Origin: Methylobacterium sp.
Lineage (GTDB): Bacteria > Pseudomonadota > Alphaproteobacteria > Rhizobiales > Beijerinckiaceae
Assembly (NCBI GenBank): GCA_002928875.1
Contig: PERO01000006.1
Location: forward strand, 1 to 64,000
DNA length: 64,000 nucleotides
Direction of reading: 5' to 3'
Positions 4,694-11,389 of this stretch are shown here, one piece after another. A model generated the notes under the pieces. That model was not told where the DNA came from and did no database searches. It saw nothing but the letters and a program-made list of their open reading frames with translations. Both the position numbers and the translations under genes were made by a program. The stretch's first letter is position 1, and each line of letters opens with the position of its first letter.

Positions 4694-5134
4694 TCAACTG
4701 CGCTGTATCAACTCCAAACGGTATCCGTCTGGATCCAGCACGAAGGCAATGATCTCCTCCGCGCGCCCTATCAGCGGTCCGGGAGGACGAACCACTGCGA
4801 CGCCCTTTGCAGCAAGGGCAGCCGTCGCAGCATGGATATCACCGACCGCGATTGCGATATGCCCGAAGGCCGTGCCCTTATCATAGGCATGCTGATCCCA
4901 GTTATAGGTCAGTTCAAGAACCGCATGAGTCTCTTCCGGGCCATAACCGAGAAAGACCAGCGTGAAGCGCTGCTCGTCGAAGGTTGCGACCCGGAGCACT
5001 GTCATGCCGAGCAGGTCCACATAGAAGGCCAGCGAGCGATCGAGGTCCACAACGCGCAGCATGGTGTGCAACAGGCGTGCGCCCGGAAGGGGCGATGCAA
5101 CCGTCGTGGTTGCCTGAGCGGTCGGAAGTGACAT
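4694..5134 (-). CDS. gloA: Lactoylglutathione lyase (glyoxalase I)
   Basis: Isomerises the methylglyoxal-glutathione hemithioacetal to S-lactoylglutathione in the cytoplasm. The four metal ligands of the family are visible: His23 (RLLHTMLRV), Glu74 (HAVLELTYN), His92 (AFGHIAIAV) and Glu141 (YRLELIQRS). GYGPEETHAVLELTYNWD is typical of GloA. At 146 residues it carries a short N-terminal extension of about 17 residues. The ATG at 5134 is chosen because GGGA precedes it; ATG 5152 is in frame without one. It lies downstream of the YdhR-like gene, probably in one operon under the ATAACGATCGTTAT operators. Confidence 0.92.
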   Translation of the reverse strand: MSLPTAQATTTVASPLPGARLLHTMLRVVDLDRSLAFYVDLLGMTVLRVATFDEQRFTLVFLGYGPEETHAVLELTYNWDQHAYDKGTAFGHIAIAVGDIHAATAALAAKGVAVVRPPGPLIGRAEEIIAFVLDPDGYRLELIQRS

Positions 5135-5166
5135 GACGACGTTCCCTGCCATGAAGTGGTCGGCTG

Positions 5167-5190
5167 CCGGCGAGGCCGATGCCTCGCCGG
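5167..5190. repeat. Strong 10-bp stem hairpin inside the ydhR-gloA operon
   Basis: CCGGCGAGGC, loop CGAT, GCCTCGCCGG: a perfect GC-rich hairpin in the 72-bp gap between the two leftward genes. There is no T-run, so it is more likely an mRNA-stabilising or REP-like element than a terminator. Confidence 0.6.
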
Positions 5191-5206
5191 CGGCCGACCC
5201 CGCCTT

Positions 5207-5836
5207 TCAGCGATAGAAGTGCGAATGAACACCACGGCTCGCGGCTTCCACGGGCGCAGCATCGAAAATGCGCGTTGTGTAGGCCACTTCCAGCGCGGCT
5301 GTTTCGGTCGGGAAGTAATCCGTGACGAAGCGCGTGGCGTTCTCGATCGTGTCGAAGGCGTAGAAGCCGCCGACGGACTGGTTCTTCACGCCCGAAAGCC
5401 ATGTCTTGTGGAGGAGGCCCGGCTGCGCTTTCAGGATCGGGTTCATGGCCCGCCAGGGCGCCTGGGCGAAATCCGCCGAGATCTGCGCTTCGGTGTAGAC
5501 GAACGCACCGGGGCGCTGTGTGACCGTACCGCCGAAATGCACGGAGTTCAGGTAGCGGCTCGCCTCCTCGACCACCGAGCCGTCGAAGACGCGGGTCGTC
5601 TGCGCGACGCCGAACTTGCGCGCCTCGGCCGGGAAATAGTTGATCACGAAGGCGCGGGCATTCTCGATCGTATCGAACTCGTAGAATCCCCCAACGGAGC
5701 CGTTCTTCACGCCGGCAAGCCAGGTCTTGTTGCGAAATCCCGGCTGGACCAGGATTGCGGGATTGATATCGCGCCAGGGTGCGCTTTCGAAGGGAAGCGA
5801 AATCTGCAACTCGGTATATACGAAAGCCTTGGACAT
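5207..5836 (-). CDS. Tandem-duplicated YdhR-like (Dabb-fold) protein
   Basis: 209 residues built from two copies of one domain, about residues 4-96 and 112-203. Each copy contains KTWLxGVKNxSVGGFYxFDTIENA followed by a YFP segment, so the gene is an internal duplication of a YdhR/mono-oxygenase-type ferredoxin-like fold. Single-domain relatives usually dimerise; here the two halves may form the dimer in one chain (inference). The ATG at 5836 has GGAG about 11 bases upstream; the open frame runs on to 5929 but that part covers the operator region. It is the first gene of the leftward operon with gloA and diverges from the TetR gene. Confidence 0.8.
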   Translation of the reverse strand: MSKAFVYTELQISLPFESAPWRDINPAILVQPGFRNKTWLAGVKNGSVGGFYEFDTIENARAFVINYFPAEARKFGVAQTTRVFDGSVVEEASRYLNSVHFGGTVTQRPGAFVYTEAQISADFAQAPWRAMNPILKAQPGLLHKTWLSGVKNQSVGGFYAFDTIENATRFVTDYFPTETAALEVAYTTRIFDAAPVEAASRGVHSHFYR

Positions 5837-5888
5837 CGGCGTACTCCATGCAGTGGGATGGCACGGCTCTGTGGATGATTGCGCGGCC

Positions 5889-5916
5889 GTGACGATCGTT
5901 ATATAACGGTCGCGAT
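5889..5916. promoter_or_regulatory. Two abutting imperfect TetR operator copies
   Basis: 5889-5902 matches the palindrome ATAACGATCGTTAT at 12 of 14 positions and 5903-5916 at 11 of 14. They lie between the ydhR-like gene and the tetR gene, nearest the leftward gene. Confidence 0.6.
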
Positions 5917-5927
5917 ATTTCATTCTC

Positions 5928-5941
5928 ATAACGATCGTTAT
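5928..5941. promoter_or_regulatory. Perfect operator palindrome ATAACGATCGTTAT
   Basis: Perfect 14-bp palindrome in the ydhR/tetR divergent promoter. The same 14-mer recurs exactly at 7862-7875 and with one or two changes at other promoters of this block, so it is the likely binding site of the TetR protein at 5983-6594. Confidence 0.8.
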
Positions 5942-5955
5942 CGTGTCAACACAAA

Positions 5956-5969
5956 ATAACGATCCCTAT
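5956..5969. promoter_or_regulatory. Operator copy close to the tetR start
   Basis: ATAACGATCCCTAT, 12 of 14 matches to the palindrome. It ends 13 bp before the tetR ATG, a position suited to autorepression. Confidence 0.6.
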
Positions 5970-5982
5970 TTGGAGAAGCTCC

Positions 5983-6594
5983 ATGCCCCCAAGGGTTGGC
6001 CAGAAGGAAGAGACGCGGCAACGGATTGTCGAGGGCGCCGGTCGCGGCTTCCGTGCGCACGGTTATGGCGGGATCGGGGTCGACGGTCTGGCGCGCGAGG
6101 CAGCCGTGACATCTGGCGCGTTCTACGCGAATTTCAAATCCAAGGCCGCAGCCTTCCGCGAGGTCGTGGCGACAGGGCTGGACGAACTCCGTGATGGAAT
6201 CCTGATGATGCGGGGCCGCTTTGGCACGCATTGGCGGGAGAAATTCGTGGATTTCTACCTAGGCGAGCGCCGGACATGTGACCTTGCCGAGAGCTGTGCG
6301 CTGCAAAGCCTGACCAACGAGGTGGCACGGGCCGATCCCGATATTCGCGCGATCTATGAGGAAAAGCTCCGCGCGATCATTGATTCAACGGCAGATGGCC
6401 TTGCAGGCGACACGGTAAGAAGCCGGCGCGATGAATCCATTGCCCTTCTTGCCCTGCTGATTGGCGGTGTCTCTCTCGCACGGGGGGTGAATGACGAGGC
6501 GCTCGGCAACGAGATCGCGAAAGCCGTGCGCGAGGCTGCCCAACAACTGGAGGACAAGAACCAGGGCGCCAAGGCCAAGCCCCGAAGGGCATAG
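5983..6594 (+). CDS. TetR/AcrR family transcriptional regulator
   Basis: 203 residues with an N-terminal TetR helix-turn-helix (about 8-55: RQRIVEGAGRGFRAHGYGGIGVDGLAREAAVTSGAFYANFKSK read in segments) and a ligand-binding C-terminal domain. GGAG lies 8 bases before the ATG. It diverges from the ydhR-gloA operon, and its promoter holds four copies of a 14-bp palindrome that also precedes the next three rightward genes. Inference: it represses itself and this whole detoxification block and is released by an electrophile or other toxic small molecule; the ligand cannot be told from sequence. Confidence 0.9.
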   Translation: MPPRVGQKEETRQRIVEGAGRGFRAHGYGGIGVDGLAREAAVTSGAFYANFKSKAAAFREVVATGLDELRDGILMMRGRFGTHWREKFVDFYLGERRTCDLAESCALQSLTNEVARADPDIRAIYEEKLRAIIDSTADGLAGDTVRSRRDESIALLALLIGGVSLARGVNDEALGNEIAKAVREAAQQLEDKNQGAKAKPRRA

Positions 6595-6696
6595 CAAAGG
6601 CCCGGCGGAGCGGCACGATCCTGGCGCGCGTTGCGCGATCGATTGTGAGGCCTGAGGGGGCGGTTTCGGATTCCGTCCCGCTCATGGCGAATTTAT

Positions 6697-6710
6697 ATTT
6701 CGATCGTTAT
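6697..6710. promoter_or_regulatory. Operator copy upstream of the DMT exporter
   Basis: ATTTCGATCGTTAT, 12 of 14 matches to the perfect palindrome, about 70 bp upstream of the exporter start. Confidence 0.65.
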
Positions 6711-6779
6711 ATCATTGTGCCATGATCCTGGTCCTGTCGCTCCCGATTGAGGAGCTGCGGCCGAAAAGCCGAGGGGTCC

Positions 6780-7739
6780 ATGTCCATGACACACGAAGCA
6801 CCCTGCTGCGGTGGGACGGTGCAGAATCCGCTGGAACAACCGCCCACCGAGCCGCAAGCCAGAATGCAACGCAACGCTCCGACCGGAGGAGCGCGAGGAT
6901 TCTGGAACTGCCTCGCCGGCATCCTGATCTTCAGCGGCTCGCTGCCGGCAACCCGGGTTGCCGTACTCTCGCTCGATCCGGTCTTCCTCACCCATGCGCG
7001 CGCAGCCTTGGCGGGCCTTCTTGGTGGAATCCTGCTGTTCGCACTCCATGCTTCCCGCCCGAGGCGAAAAGACCTGCTCCCGCTTCTGGTAGTCGCCGGA
7101 GGGGTGGTGATTGGCTTTCCACTCTTCACTGGCCTGGCGTTGCGCCATGTGGGTGCGGCTGATGCGATCGGCTTTCTGGGACTTTTACCGCTCTCAACGA
7201 CTGTGTTTGGGTTCATTCGCGGTGGAGAGCGTCCGAAACCGGTGTTCTGGGGCTTTGCGATCCTGGGGGCGGCGATTGTCATGGCCGGGAGTGGATTGAG
7301 CCTGGCTGCCACTGCTTCCGAGGGCGTGATCTACATGCTTATGGCCGTCCTCGTCTGCGGTCTTGGCTACGCAGAAGGCGCGATTCTCGCTCGCCGGCTC
7401 GGCGGATGGCAAGTGATCTCTTGGGCCCTTGTCCTTTCCTTGCCCGTCTCGATGGGCCTGACCCTGCGCATTTGGCCGGATGATCTGCTTCGCGTCGACT
7501 TAGCTGGCTGGCTCGCCTTTCTCTATGTCTCGATCTTCAGCATGCTCGTGGGCTTCATTTTCTGGTATCGCGGCCTCGCCATGAGCGGGATCGCACTCAG
7601 CAGCCAATTGCAACTTCTCCAGCCTTTTGCGGCCTTCATGCTCGCTGCCCTGGTGTTGGGGGAATCCGTGAGCCTCGGCATGATCGGAACGGCCGCCGCT
7701 GTCATGTTCTGCGTCGCCGGTGCCCGTCGCTTCGGCTGA
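6780..7739 (+). CDS. EamA/DMT-family exporter
   Basis: An inner-membrane protein of 319 residues with about ten hydrophobic segments and the duplicated EamA organisation; the second half ends with an LQPFAAFMLAALVLGE-type motif of drug/metabolite transporters. The ATG at 6780 is preceded by GAGGGG; an in-frame upstream ATG at 6747 lacks a binding site. It lies in the TetR block and carries the shared operator, so it probably exports the compound or product that induces the block (inference). Substrate unknown. The N-terminal 35 residues before the first helix are unusually long and contain a CC pair. Confidence 0.85.
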   Translation: MSMTHEAPCCGGTVQNPLEQPPTEPQARMQRNAPTGGARGFWNCLAGILIFSGSLPATRVAVLSLDPVFLTHARAALAGLLGGILLFALHASRPRRKDLLPLLVVAGGVVIGFPLFTGLALRHVGAADAIGFLGLLPLSTTVFGFIRGGERPKPVFWGFAILGAAIVMAGSGLSLAATASEGVIYMLMAVLVCGLGYAEGAILARRLGGWQVISWALVLSLPVSMGLTLRIWPDDLLRVDLAGWLAFLYVSIFSMLVGFIFWYRGLAMSGIALSSQLQLLQPFAAFMLAALVLGESVSLGMIGTAAAVMFCVAGARRFG

Positions 7740-7861
7740 ACCGGCGCCGTGATGCCCTCCCAGTTGGGACTACACCTCAACACGCACCGTCGAGCCTGAT
7801 TGATCACGTCGCGGAGGTCAGCGCGGACCGATAACGGGTTTGACAAAGCACGTCTAAATTT

Positions 7862-7875
7862 ATAACGATCGTTAT
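7862..7875. promoter_or_regulatory. Perfect operator palindrome before the DUF1127 gene
   Basis: Exact ATAACGATCGTTAT. A TTGACA box lies at 7840-7845, so a repressor bound here would cover the -10 region of that promoter. Confidence 0.8.
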
Positions 7876-7900
7876 ATTACTTTCTGTCACGGAGATCGTC

Positions 7901-8275
7901 ATGCCCCTGTGGAAACTCATGGCTATACCCCCTTTTCTGGCTTCGACCGGGCTTGCGCTTGGCGCGACACTCAGGGCCGGCCTGGCCGCCGCCATTCGTT
8001 GTCTCAACCGCCCTCGGCGAAGGGCGCCACTCTCAGCCATGGATCCTCACGTCCTACGCGACATTGGATTTGAGCGTTCCATGCTGATCGTTTCAGAGAT
8101 TTCCGAGCCAGAAAGGACCGTCTTGCCCGAGAAAACAAGTGATACGGCCGGCGAAGCGCCAAGACGGCGGCCAACGTTCAGCCTTGTGGTCCGGTCGCGG
8201 TTGGTTGCTGTCTCCCCCTCTGCACGAGCCACGAAACGTCTCACCTGCGGCAGCGAAGCCGTCGTCGAGGCGTGA
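7901..8275 (+). CDS. DUF1127 (YjiS-like) protein with a long basic tail
   Basis: 124 residues. LSAMDPHVLRDIGFERSML at about residues 44-62 is the DUF1127 signature (xLxDIGLxRS). Family members are usually 45-95 residues; here about 60 extra residues follow, rich in Arg, Ser and Thr. The N-terminus (1-32) is hydrophobic. GGAG precedes the ATG. The perfect TetR operator lies 25 bp upstream. DUF1127 proteins are linked in other alphaproteobacteria to stress and RNA-related regulation; the role here is unknown. The C-terminal extension may be non-functional. Confidence 0.7.
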   Translation: MPLWKLMAIPPFLASTGLALGATLRAGLAAAIRCLNRPRRRAPLSAMDPHVLRDIGFERSMLIVSEISEPERTVLPEKTSDTAGEAPRRRPTFSLVVRSRLVAVSPSARATKRLTCGSEAVVEA

Positions 8276-8317
8276 GGGCAAACTGGGGCGGCGCGCCAGA
8301 TTGGCGCAGTTGACAAA

Positions 8318-8350
8318 ATAACGATCGATATATTAAATAGCGATCGTTAT
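8318..8350. promoter_or_regulatory. Two operator copies in the hydrolase promoter
   Basis: 8318-8331 (ATAACGATCGATAT) and 8337-8350 (ATAGCGATCGTTAT), each one base off the perfect palindrome. A TTGACA box at 8310-8315 sits directly upstream, so both copies fall within the promoter. Confidence 0.75.
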
Positions 8351-8425
8351 TCCAGGGCGCCGGACCTTTTTTGGGCCGATGCTGCGGGGAATGGCATTCC
8401 GATCATCAAACCTACGGAGAAGTTC

Positions 8426-9361
8426 ATGATGACGTTCCGCTCCCTGCTGAGGGGTCTCGCGCTTACCGGCGCCATTCTTTCATCCACGTTTGCTCTCGCT
8501 CTGGAGCGAACATATCATCGCACCCTCGATGTCGAGGGCGTGAATGTTTTCTACCGCGAGGCCGGTCGTCCCGAGGCCCCGAAAGTGGTTTTGCTGCACG
8601 GATGGGGCGCTTCGTCCTTCATGTTCCGCAACCTCATCCCCATGCTGGCGGAAAAGTATCATGTGATAGCGCCTGACCTGCCCGGCTTCGGTCTCACTTC
8701 TGCCTCTGCACGCGACTTCCGGTACGATTTCGACAACCTCGCGCAGGTCATCGAAAGGTTCCTGGCGGCGAAGAAGATCGATCGGTACGCGGTCTATGTT
8801 TTCGATTACGGCGCGCCGACGGGCTACCGTCTGGCACTGCGCAATCCCGAGAAAGTCCGGGCGATCATCTCGCAGAACGGCAACGCCTATCTCGAAGGTC
8901 TGAGCGCAGGATGGGACCCGATCCGCCGCTACTGGAACGAGCCGACAGCCGCCAATCGCGATGCACTGCGCGCGTTCATGACGCTCGAAACGCAGAAGTT
9001 CCAGTACCTCGAGGGCGTGAAGGACAAGACGCTGGTGGAGCCCGAGACCTATCTCCTGGCACAAGCCGGATTCGATGCACCCGGCAACATGGAGATCCAG
9101 CTCGATCTCTTCCGCGACTACCAGTCCAACCTCGCACTCTATCCCCAGTTCCAGGCCTATTTCCGCAAGCACCAGCCGCCGATCCTCGCGGTCTGGGGCA
9201 AGAACGATCCGTTCTTTCTCCCGGCTGGCGCCGAGGCCTACAAGCGCGACAACCCGAAGGCCGAGGTGCATTTCTATGATACCGGCCACTTCGCTCTCGA
9301 GACGCATAACGACGAGATCGGCAAGCGGATCATCGAGTTCCTCGGTCGTGTCATGAAGTGA
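8426..9361 (+). CDS. Secreted alpha/beta hydrolase, epoxide hydrolase/haloalkane dehalogenase type
   Basis: 311 residues with a Sec-type signal peptide (hydrophobic 6-25, likely cleavage after ALA near 25). The fold motifs are HGW (58-60, oxyanion), DLPGFG (84-89), the nucleophile elbow VFDYGAP with Asp127 instead of Ser, Asp261 (WGKNDPFF) and His288 (DTGHFALETH). An Asp nucleophile places it with epoxide hydrolases and dehalogenases rather than esterases. ATGATG at 8426 follows a GGAG. It is the last gene of the operator-linked block and is followed by a strong terminator. Substrate unknown. Confidence 0.85.
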   Translation: MMTFRSLLRGLALTGAILSSTFALALERTYHRTLDVEGVNVFYREAGRPEAPKVVLLHGWGASSFMFRNLIPMLAEKYHVIAPDLPGFGLTSASARDFRYDFDNLAQVIERFLAAKKIDRYAVYVFDYGAPTGYRLALRNPEKVRAIISQNGNAYLEGLSAGWDPIRRYWNEPTAANRDALRAFMTLETQKFQYLEGVKDKTLVEPETYLLAQAGFDAPGNMEIQLDLFRDYQSNLALYPQFQAYFRKHQPPILAVWGKNDPFFLPAGAEAYKRDNPKAEVHFYDTGHFALETHNDEIGKRIIEFLGRVMK

Positions 9362-10993: not shown

Positions 10994-11389
10994 TCAGGAC
11001 ACGGCCGGCGCAAAAGGCGCCAGGCCATTGCCGAACGACCAGTTCTCGCGTTTCGTCTCGACGAGATTGATCACGACATCGCTCGCCTTGATGTTGCTTA
11101 CCTCGGATATCCGGCGCGCGATGGAGGCATAAAGGGCGCGCTTCTGCTCCAATGTGCGGCCTTCGGCACAGGTGATCTGCACGAAAACGACATCCTTGGT
11201 GTGCTCGATGCCGAGAAAGGAAGCGGGAGCCAGCAAGTCACGGCCCGGTTCGTGCCCGGTCAGGATCTGGAAGAAGTCGTCGGCCGGAACATTGAAGGTC
11301 TCGACCATGGCGTCATGGACGGAGCGGGAAACGGCAGCCGAGAAGCTCGCGGGCTTGCCGGTCACATGGGAAATTCGGACGAGGGGCAT
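10994..11389 (-). CDS. Tautomerase-family protein
   Basis: 131 residues beginning MPLVRI, so Pro2 can act as the catalytic base of the 4-oxalocrotonate tautomerase/MIF superfamily after Met removal. The length fits the two-domain (about 130-residue) subgroup. AGGAAAAT precedes the ATG. Middle gene of the propeller - tautomerase - dehydrogenase operon. The three together suggest catabolism of a small keto or hydroxy acid (inference). Confidence 0.85.
   Translation of the reverse strand: MPLVRISHVTGKPASFSAAVSRSVHDAMVETFNVPADDFFQILTGHEPGRDLLAPASFLGIEHTKDVVFVQITCAEGRTLEQKRALYASIARRISEVSNIKASDVVINLVETKRENWSFGNGLAPFAPAVS

Follow-up and report, generated by a model that had tools for sequence, protein, structure and literature searches.

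The window, by which we mean the whole 64,000-nucleotide stretch of Methylobacterium sp. DNA analyzed here, contains a compact block of genes built around a gene for a TetR-family regulator. A ydhR-gloA unit diverges from tetR, and genes for a drug/metabolite-type (DMT, EamA) transporter, a DUF1127-domain protein and an alpha/beta hydrolase lie on its other side (Table 1). The gloA product matches the lactoylglutathione lyase model with 138.9 bits (cut-off 120) and is 54.6% identical to the gloA near tetR of Methylocystis and Tistrella; the link to methylglyoxal drawn in the earlier note extends as far as this family assignment. The YdhR protein is 57-60% identical to orthologs that diverge from tetR at three other loci (L005, L006 and L052). 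The DUF1127 assignment is barely over its cut-off (23.9 against 23.3 bits). When the hydrolase is aligned with haloalkane dehalogenase an aspartate is kept at the nucleophile position, with D-Y-G for D-W-G and HGWG for HGNP, and it is to this alignment that the description of the enzyme as epoxide-hydrolase-like can be traced.

Table 1. Features of the tetR block. Mismatches are to the palindrome ATAACGATCGTTAT; matrix scores are in bits.
Feature	Position	Strand	Evidence or remark
gloA, lactoylglutathione lyase (glyoxalase I), second gene of divergent unit	4694..5152	-	TIGR00068, Pfam Glyoxalase
ydhR-like, 209 aa with two YdhR domains, first gene of divergent unit	5207..5836	-	PF08803 x2
Predicted operator O1a	5889..5902		2 mismatches; matrix 15.4
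Predicted operator O1b	5903..5916		3 mismatches; matrix 18.6; offset 14 bp from O1a
Predicted ydhR promoter TTGACA-N16-GAGAAT, enclosing O2	5922..5949	-	10/12 consensus bases
Predicted operator O2, inside predicted ydhR promoter spacer	5928..5941		perfect palindrome, 0 mismatches
Predicted operator O3	5956..5969		2 mismatches; 28 bp from O2
tetR, TetR-family repressor (probable), 203 aa	5983..6594	+	PF00440
tetR recognition helix, residues 44-51, SGAFYANF	6112..6135	+	model helix H44-51
Predicted operator preceding DMT transporter	6697..6710		2 mismatches; matrix 17.5
DMT (EamA) family transporter	6780..7739	+	PF00892, 2 stretches
Predicted operator preceding DUF1127 gene, 16 nt after TTGACA (7840-7845)	7862..7875		perfect palindrome, 0 mismatches
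DUF1127-domain protein, 124 aa	7901..8275	+	PF06568, marginal
Predicted operator preceding hydrolase, 2 nt after TTGACA (8310-8315), layout as O2	8318..8331		1 mismatch
Second predicted operator of hydrolase	8337..8350		1 mismatch; matrix 26.4
Alpha/beta hydrolase, N-terminal signal-like segment (by eye)	8426..9361	+	PF00561

The regulator has a TetR_N helix-turn-helix (33.6 bits against a cut-off of 24). Its predicted model is all-helical, with eight helices and a pLDDT of 85.4, and its best fold match in the PDB is 2fd5, with a probability of 1.00, which agrees with the helical fold and variable C-terminal ligand domain of the family. Judged from the sequence, a palindromic operator lies both at its own promoter and at the adjacent one, in keeping with membership of the family.

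Eight sites match ATAACGATCGTTAT with at most three mismatches, starting exactly where the earlier note had placed them. Its claim that such repetition is not due to chance is upheld, since 0.58 matches are expected on average in the 64 kb; among 100 dinucleotide shuffles of the window the largest number was three, and none reached eight. A Markov control for the surrounding 3 kb gave a mean of 0.04 matches and a maximum of one (300 runs). All eight sites are intergenic, though intergenic DNA makes up 14.9% of the region 4694-9361. The genome itself (3.24 Mb, 83.93% complete) has eight sites with up to two mismatches, a count that excludes the three-mismatch site at 5903, and seven of them lie in the block, so the scatter of unrelated copies that would speak against a local regulon is not seen. 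The single site elsewhere (C1:70302) falls within a 469-aa reading frame that by eye resembles a CCA-adding or poly(A) polymerase, and is taken as a chance match. Seven genomes of the same genus or family that lack a close ortholog of the regulator have between one and eight such sites each (G011, 1; G013, 2; G001, G003 and G004, 6 each; G007, 7; G033, 8), and thus one lone site outside the block is background. A weight matrix made from 49 ortholog sites, none of them from the window, gives the eight sites the highest scores in the window (15.4-29.0 bits), followed by 14.4 bits at position 1089 and then 7.2, although this test is partly circular because the training sites were picked by their likeness to the window consensus. 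The sequence at 1089-1102, ATAATAAACATTAT, has no GATC core and scores just under the weakest site of the block; we take it as a probable chance match.

Enumeration of palindromes upstream of orthologs is free of this circularity. Orthologs of TetR were sought in 61 relatives and in overlapping samples of genomes from the class (385), the phylum (398) and the class of G747 (369), together with genome contigs and plasmids (6 of 406 matching plasmid records), and 75 of all the homologs found, the window included, were analyzed further. By profile score they fall into two sets, one at 205 bits or more and the other at 151 bits or less. In a tree calculated without the recognition helix the 29 high scorers form one group with support of 100/96, which we call the core. 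Core orthologs are found in alpha-, beta- and gammaproteobacteria and one Holophagae MAG, with a patchy distribution (2 of 16 genomes of the same genus). The tetR upstream sequence of G321 is the same as that in Tistrella mobilis; G321 is listed in the class of the window genome, which points to Alphaproteobacteria for both. A search of the assembly for a 16S gene gave none, and plasmid records yielded no close match. Residue 44, the first of the recognition helix, is serine in 24 of the 29 core members and asparagine in the other five.

We enumerated all 16,384 palindromes of 14 bp in the 170 bases upstream of tetR, allowing two mismatches and leaving out the window. The best palindrome upstream of the Ser44 orthologs is ATAACGATCGTTAT, found in 23 out of 23 with 52 sites. 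In a control with one Markov-1 sequence per upstream region it scored zero, and the best consensus of any kind reached 3/23. Across 11 longer ortholog loci there are 23 matches in 2,277 upstream positions and one in the 169,403 other positions. For the Asn44 members the best palindrome is AGAGCGATCGCTCT (5/5), and at these loci (L056, L060, L063, L065 and L068) the operators upstream of tetR are of this type and not of the ATAACGATCGTTAT type. By these computational tests the 14-bp palindrome ATAACGATCGTTAT is the predicted operator of the window TetR, because it emerges de novo upstream of every Ser44 ortholog, lies inside the predicted ydhR promoter spacer and is nearly confined to the block in its own genome. 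The pairing of regulator and palindrome proposed earlier thus gains independent support from sequences that exclude the window. By the same comparison, AGAGCGATCGCTCT in the Asn44 orthologs is a predicted natural change of operator specificity.

Operators mostly occur in arrays of two to four in the core. The window tetR/ydhR intergenic region, of 146 bp, has four, at offsets of 14, 25 and 28, and O3 ends 13 bases upstream of the start codon of tetR. The 146-bp distance fits the published rule that TetR repressors act on divergent genes within 200 bp (PMC3511530). Five of 28 orthologs (L005, L055, L064, L091 and L158) have an abutting pair such as O1a and O1b (offset 14). In most of the rest either two or three sites follow at spacings of 21-30, or two sites at 53-56; a single operator is seen in three Asn44 members. 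In 16 of the 29 core members a TTGACA-like box of the divergent gene lies within 0-3 nt of an operator, and the same test finds no -35-like box in the other 13. A promoter scan of 5750-8450 gave two matches, the better at ydhR and the other within the DMT gene and on the minus strand, with none at tetR, DMT, DUF1127 or the hydrolase; as shuffled sequences give 0.8 matches (sd 1.0), the scan alone proves nothing. The order TTGACA-N2-operator is confined in the window to two places, ydhR and the hydrolase, with zero expected.

The gene divergent from tetR could be read at all 28 orthologous loci, most being assigned by eye. It encodes YdhR in 13, as in the window. By eye, signal sequences, Tat-like or of another kind, can be read in several of the ortholog copies of YdhR; Tat-like ones are on double-domain proteins at L006, L052, L066, L069, L091, L092 and L159, so that some copies are probably exported, and the window copy has no such signal. 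At a further 12 loci the gene is tautomerase-like. Eleven of these encode a protein of 138-140 aa, with a few of the reading frames longer at the N-terminus; annotation calls it tautomerase in L057, L058 and L060 and hypothetical in L059, the others were assigned by eye, and two that were searched against Pfam had no match. The twelfth (L051) was assigned to Tautomerase_2 from its likeness to a Tautomerase_2 protein of the window. The remaining three loci (L053, L054 and L068) have something else or nothing. In a genome of the same genus (G008) a tautomerase-like gene follows the operators, and further on there is a gene 64% identical to the window Tautomerase_2. This window gene (10994-11389) has relatives close to tetR in L050 and L051, at 61-64% identity. 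We rejected it as a member of the regulon; it has no operator at three mismatches and belongs to a gene run with beta-propeller and dehydrogenase genes, which faces a gene that is LysR-like by eye. Two matches in L050 (7330 and 10786) were also set aside, being weak and with no convincing gene downstream.

The outgroup homologs allow the relation between residue 44 and the operator to be followed further. Those with His44, Arg44 or Asn44 make up 44 of 46, or 40 once near-copies are taken out; one Val44 and one Gly44 sequence were excluded. Among the non-redundant set the best palindrome is ATGATGATCATCAT for His44 (18/30), ATGTTGATCAACAT for Arg44 (5/8) and ATTATGATCATAAT for Asn44 (2/2), and the consensus of the group itself is absent upstream, at two mismatches, in 12 of 30 His44 and 3 of 8 Arg44 members. 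In sister groups of TetR proteins with TH.G.FY helices (such as L080, L084, L100 and L113), ATGATGATCATCAT is frequent upstream and keeps to the same 14-bp frame. Within the core the Ser/Asn difference arose about twice on the tree, and other residues of helices 2 and 3 co-vary with it. Moreover, Asn44 is paired with AGAGCGATCGCTCT in the core and with ATTATGATCATAAT in the outgroup, and thus residue 44 alone is not the whole code; we rejected it as the sole determinant. We take position 44 to be the counterpart of TetR Gln38, a residue known for its role in specificity. It is quite possible, though we stop just short of favoring it, that the clade and its sister groups hold an operator code in which, within a given helix background, residue 44 goes with the half-site of a 14-bp palindrome that mostly has a central GATC: ATAACGA for core Ser, AGAGCGA for core Asn, ATGATGA for outgroup His and ATGTTGA for outgroup Arg. 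In the same tentative reading the regulon of the window genome would be expanding, three additional promoters having acquired the ancestral operator. For LacI, a recognition code is already described (PMC2978694).

We consider it very probable that TetR is a dimeric repressor that acts through ATAACGATCGTTAT on ydhR-gloA, tetR, the DMT transporter, the DUF1127 gene and the hydrolase. Occupation of O2 would fill the spacer between the -35 and -10 elements and occlude the promoter, and occupation of O1a and O1b, around and downstream of the start, would add to shutting off ydhR-gloA. Binding to O3 would give autoregulation of tetR, and the operators at the DMT gene (one), the DUF1127 gene (one) and the hydrolase (two) would draw these neighbors into the same regulon. 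The sequences support the pairing of regulator with operator and also the way in which the ydhR and hydrolase promoters are laid out; that the action is repression rather than activation, that the repressor is a dimer and that the DMT and DUF1127 promoters are regulated is what we infer. A small electrophilic or aromatic compound, a class suggested by the partner genes, probably releases the repressor. YdhR would then supply oxidative conversion, GloA glutathione-dependent removal, the DMT transporter export and the hydrolase hydrolysis, all switched on together.

In a refinement of repression by TetR, the protein would be a sensor of the NemR type that detects reactive electrophiles or oxidants by a cysteine, Cys105. 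This cysteine is conserved in all 75 homologs, NemR (4yze) is among both the sequence and the fold matches, and gloA is present in the window unit. Deletion of nemR in Escherichia coli is reported to raise the gloA transcript 5-fold (PMC3739934), and the key sensing residue of NemR is reported to be Cys106 (PMC8748444). We nevertheless regard the refinement as rather unlikely. The outgroup keeps the cysteine as well, even in regulators that have other operators, and so Cys105 may be structural; its equivalence to Cys106 is putative, and a competing proposal names Cys21 and Cys116 (PMC3739934).

Comparison so far gives no support to the proposed reach of TetR to the downstream promoters. With the strict degenerate palindrome ATARYGRYCRYTAT, 37 sites were found in 16 ortholog-bearing genomes. 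Three are in the window genome, all in the block and two of them beyond the tetR intergenic region; the other 15 genomes have 34, of which seven lie outside that region. The reversed pattern gave 28 sites in the 16 genomes, so those seven are not above background, and only the window genome clearly shows reach to further promoters, as judged by this strict pattern, imperfect sites elsewhere having been searched less deeply. We rejected hydrolase orthologs as comparative support, as none of 19 loci (14 in relatives and five on plasmids, of which four are annotated and one, L152, is not) has a site at two mismatches, and three isolated three-mismatch matches occur elsewhere in these loci. Thus of the regulon claimed earlier the pairing of TetR with its operator stands, and the three downstream targets are left without comparative support. 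These observations, together with the imperfect DMT operator (ATTTCGATCGTTAT, with both mismatches in one half), could mean that TetR controls only ydhR-gloA and itself and that the DMT, DUF1127 and hydrolase sites are relics of duplication or weak and non-functional. This we think improbable; the DUF1127 and hydrolase sites are intergenic and perfect or one mismatch away, and the hydrolase copies the TTGACA-N2-operator layout exactly. Lastly, several DNA-binding families use palindromes of about this size and the pairing was deduced from sequence, yet coincidental pairing with tetR of a site bound by some other factor is hardly credible given that the site precedes the regulator in all the Ser44 orthologs, across several classes, and is replaced by a different palindrome wherever the core recognition helix has Asn44.

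Control of divergent neighbor genes by TetR repressors is textbook knowledge, and the system is ordinary in kind; the support for it is unusually good. Judged by title, and mostly outside subscription journals, we found no publication on the operator or on the tetR-ydhR/tautomerase-gloA unit, none on a bacterial regulator for AACGATCGTT and nothing related for ATGATGATCATCAT. An uncharacterized group of TetR proteins now has a specified operator, array, set of targets and natural change of specificity, all open to a cheap and concrete test, and the poorly understood YdhR and tautomerase-like proteins are linked to one conserved regulator. If verified, the residue-44 rule would allow operators to be predicted for other unstudied TetR repressors and might provide a source of orthogonal repressor-operator pairs.

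Among solved proteins, the one nearest to the window TetR in sequence (84.6 bits) as well as fold is 2fd5 of Pseudomonas aeruginosa, which we take to be PA3133. It shares the LT.G.FYAHF helix frame. However, it is 26% identical and has valine where the window TetR has Ser44, which perhaps indicates another operator; going by its title, the paper found for that structure treats a different subject. NemR has an operator that differs from that of the window TetR. NemR of E. coli (nemRA-gloA) is likewise a TetR-family regulator that affects gloA (PMC3739934). It resembles the window protein in fold (query-normalized TM 0.69-0.73), in a profile match of 52.7 bits and in having a cysteine in the ligand domain. 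The two differ in that identity in the fold alignment is 16-17%, below that of a close relative, and no nemA-type reductase is among the genes read in the window block. NemR is not among 13 NCBIfam matches, a collection that may hold no NemR model. The comparison with the classical divergent repressors TetR, QacR and ActR draws in part on general knowledge. As with these, the predicted operator overlaps the promoter and the divergent target lies within 200 bp (PMC3511530). Unlike them, the window TetR has up to four operators per intergenic region and sites at several neighboring promoters, and its predicted targets are enzymes rather than one pump.
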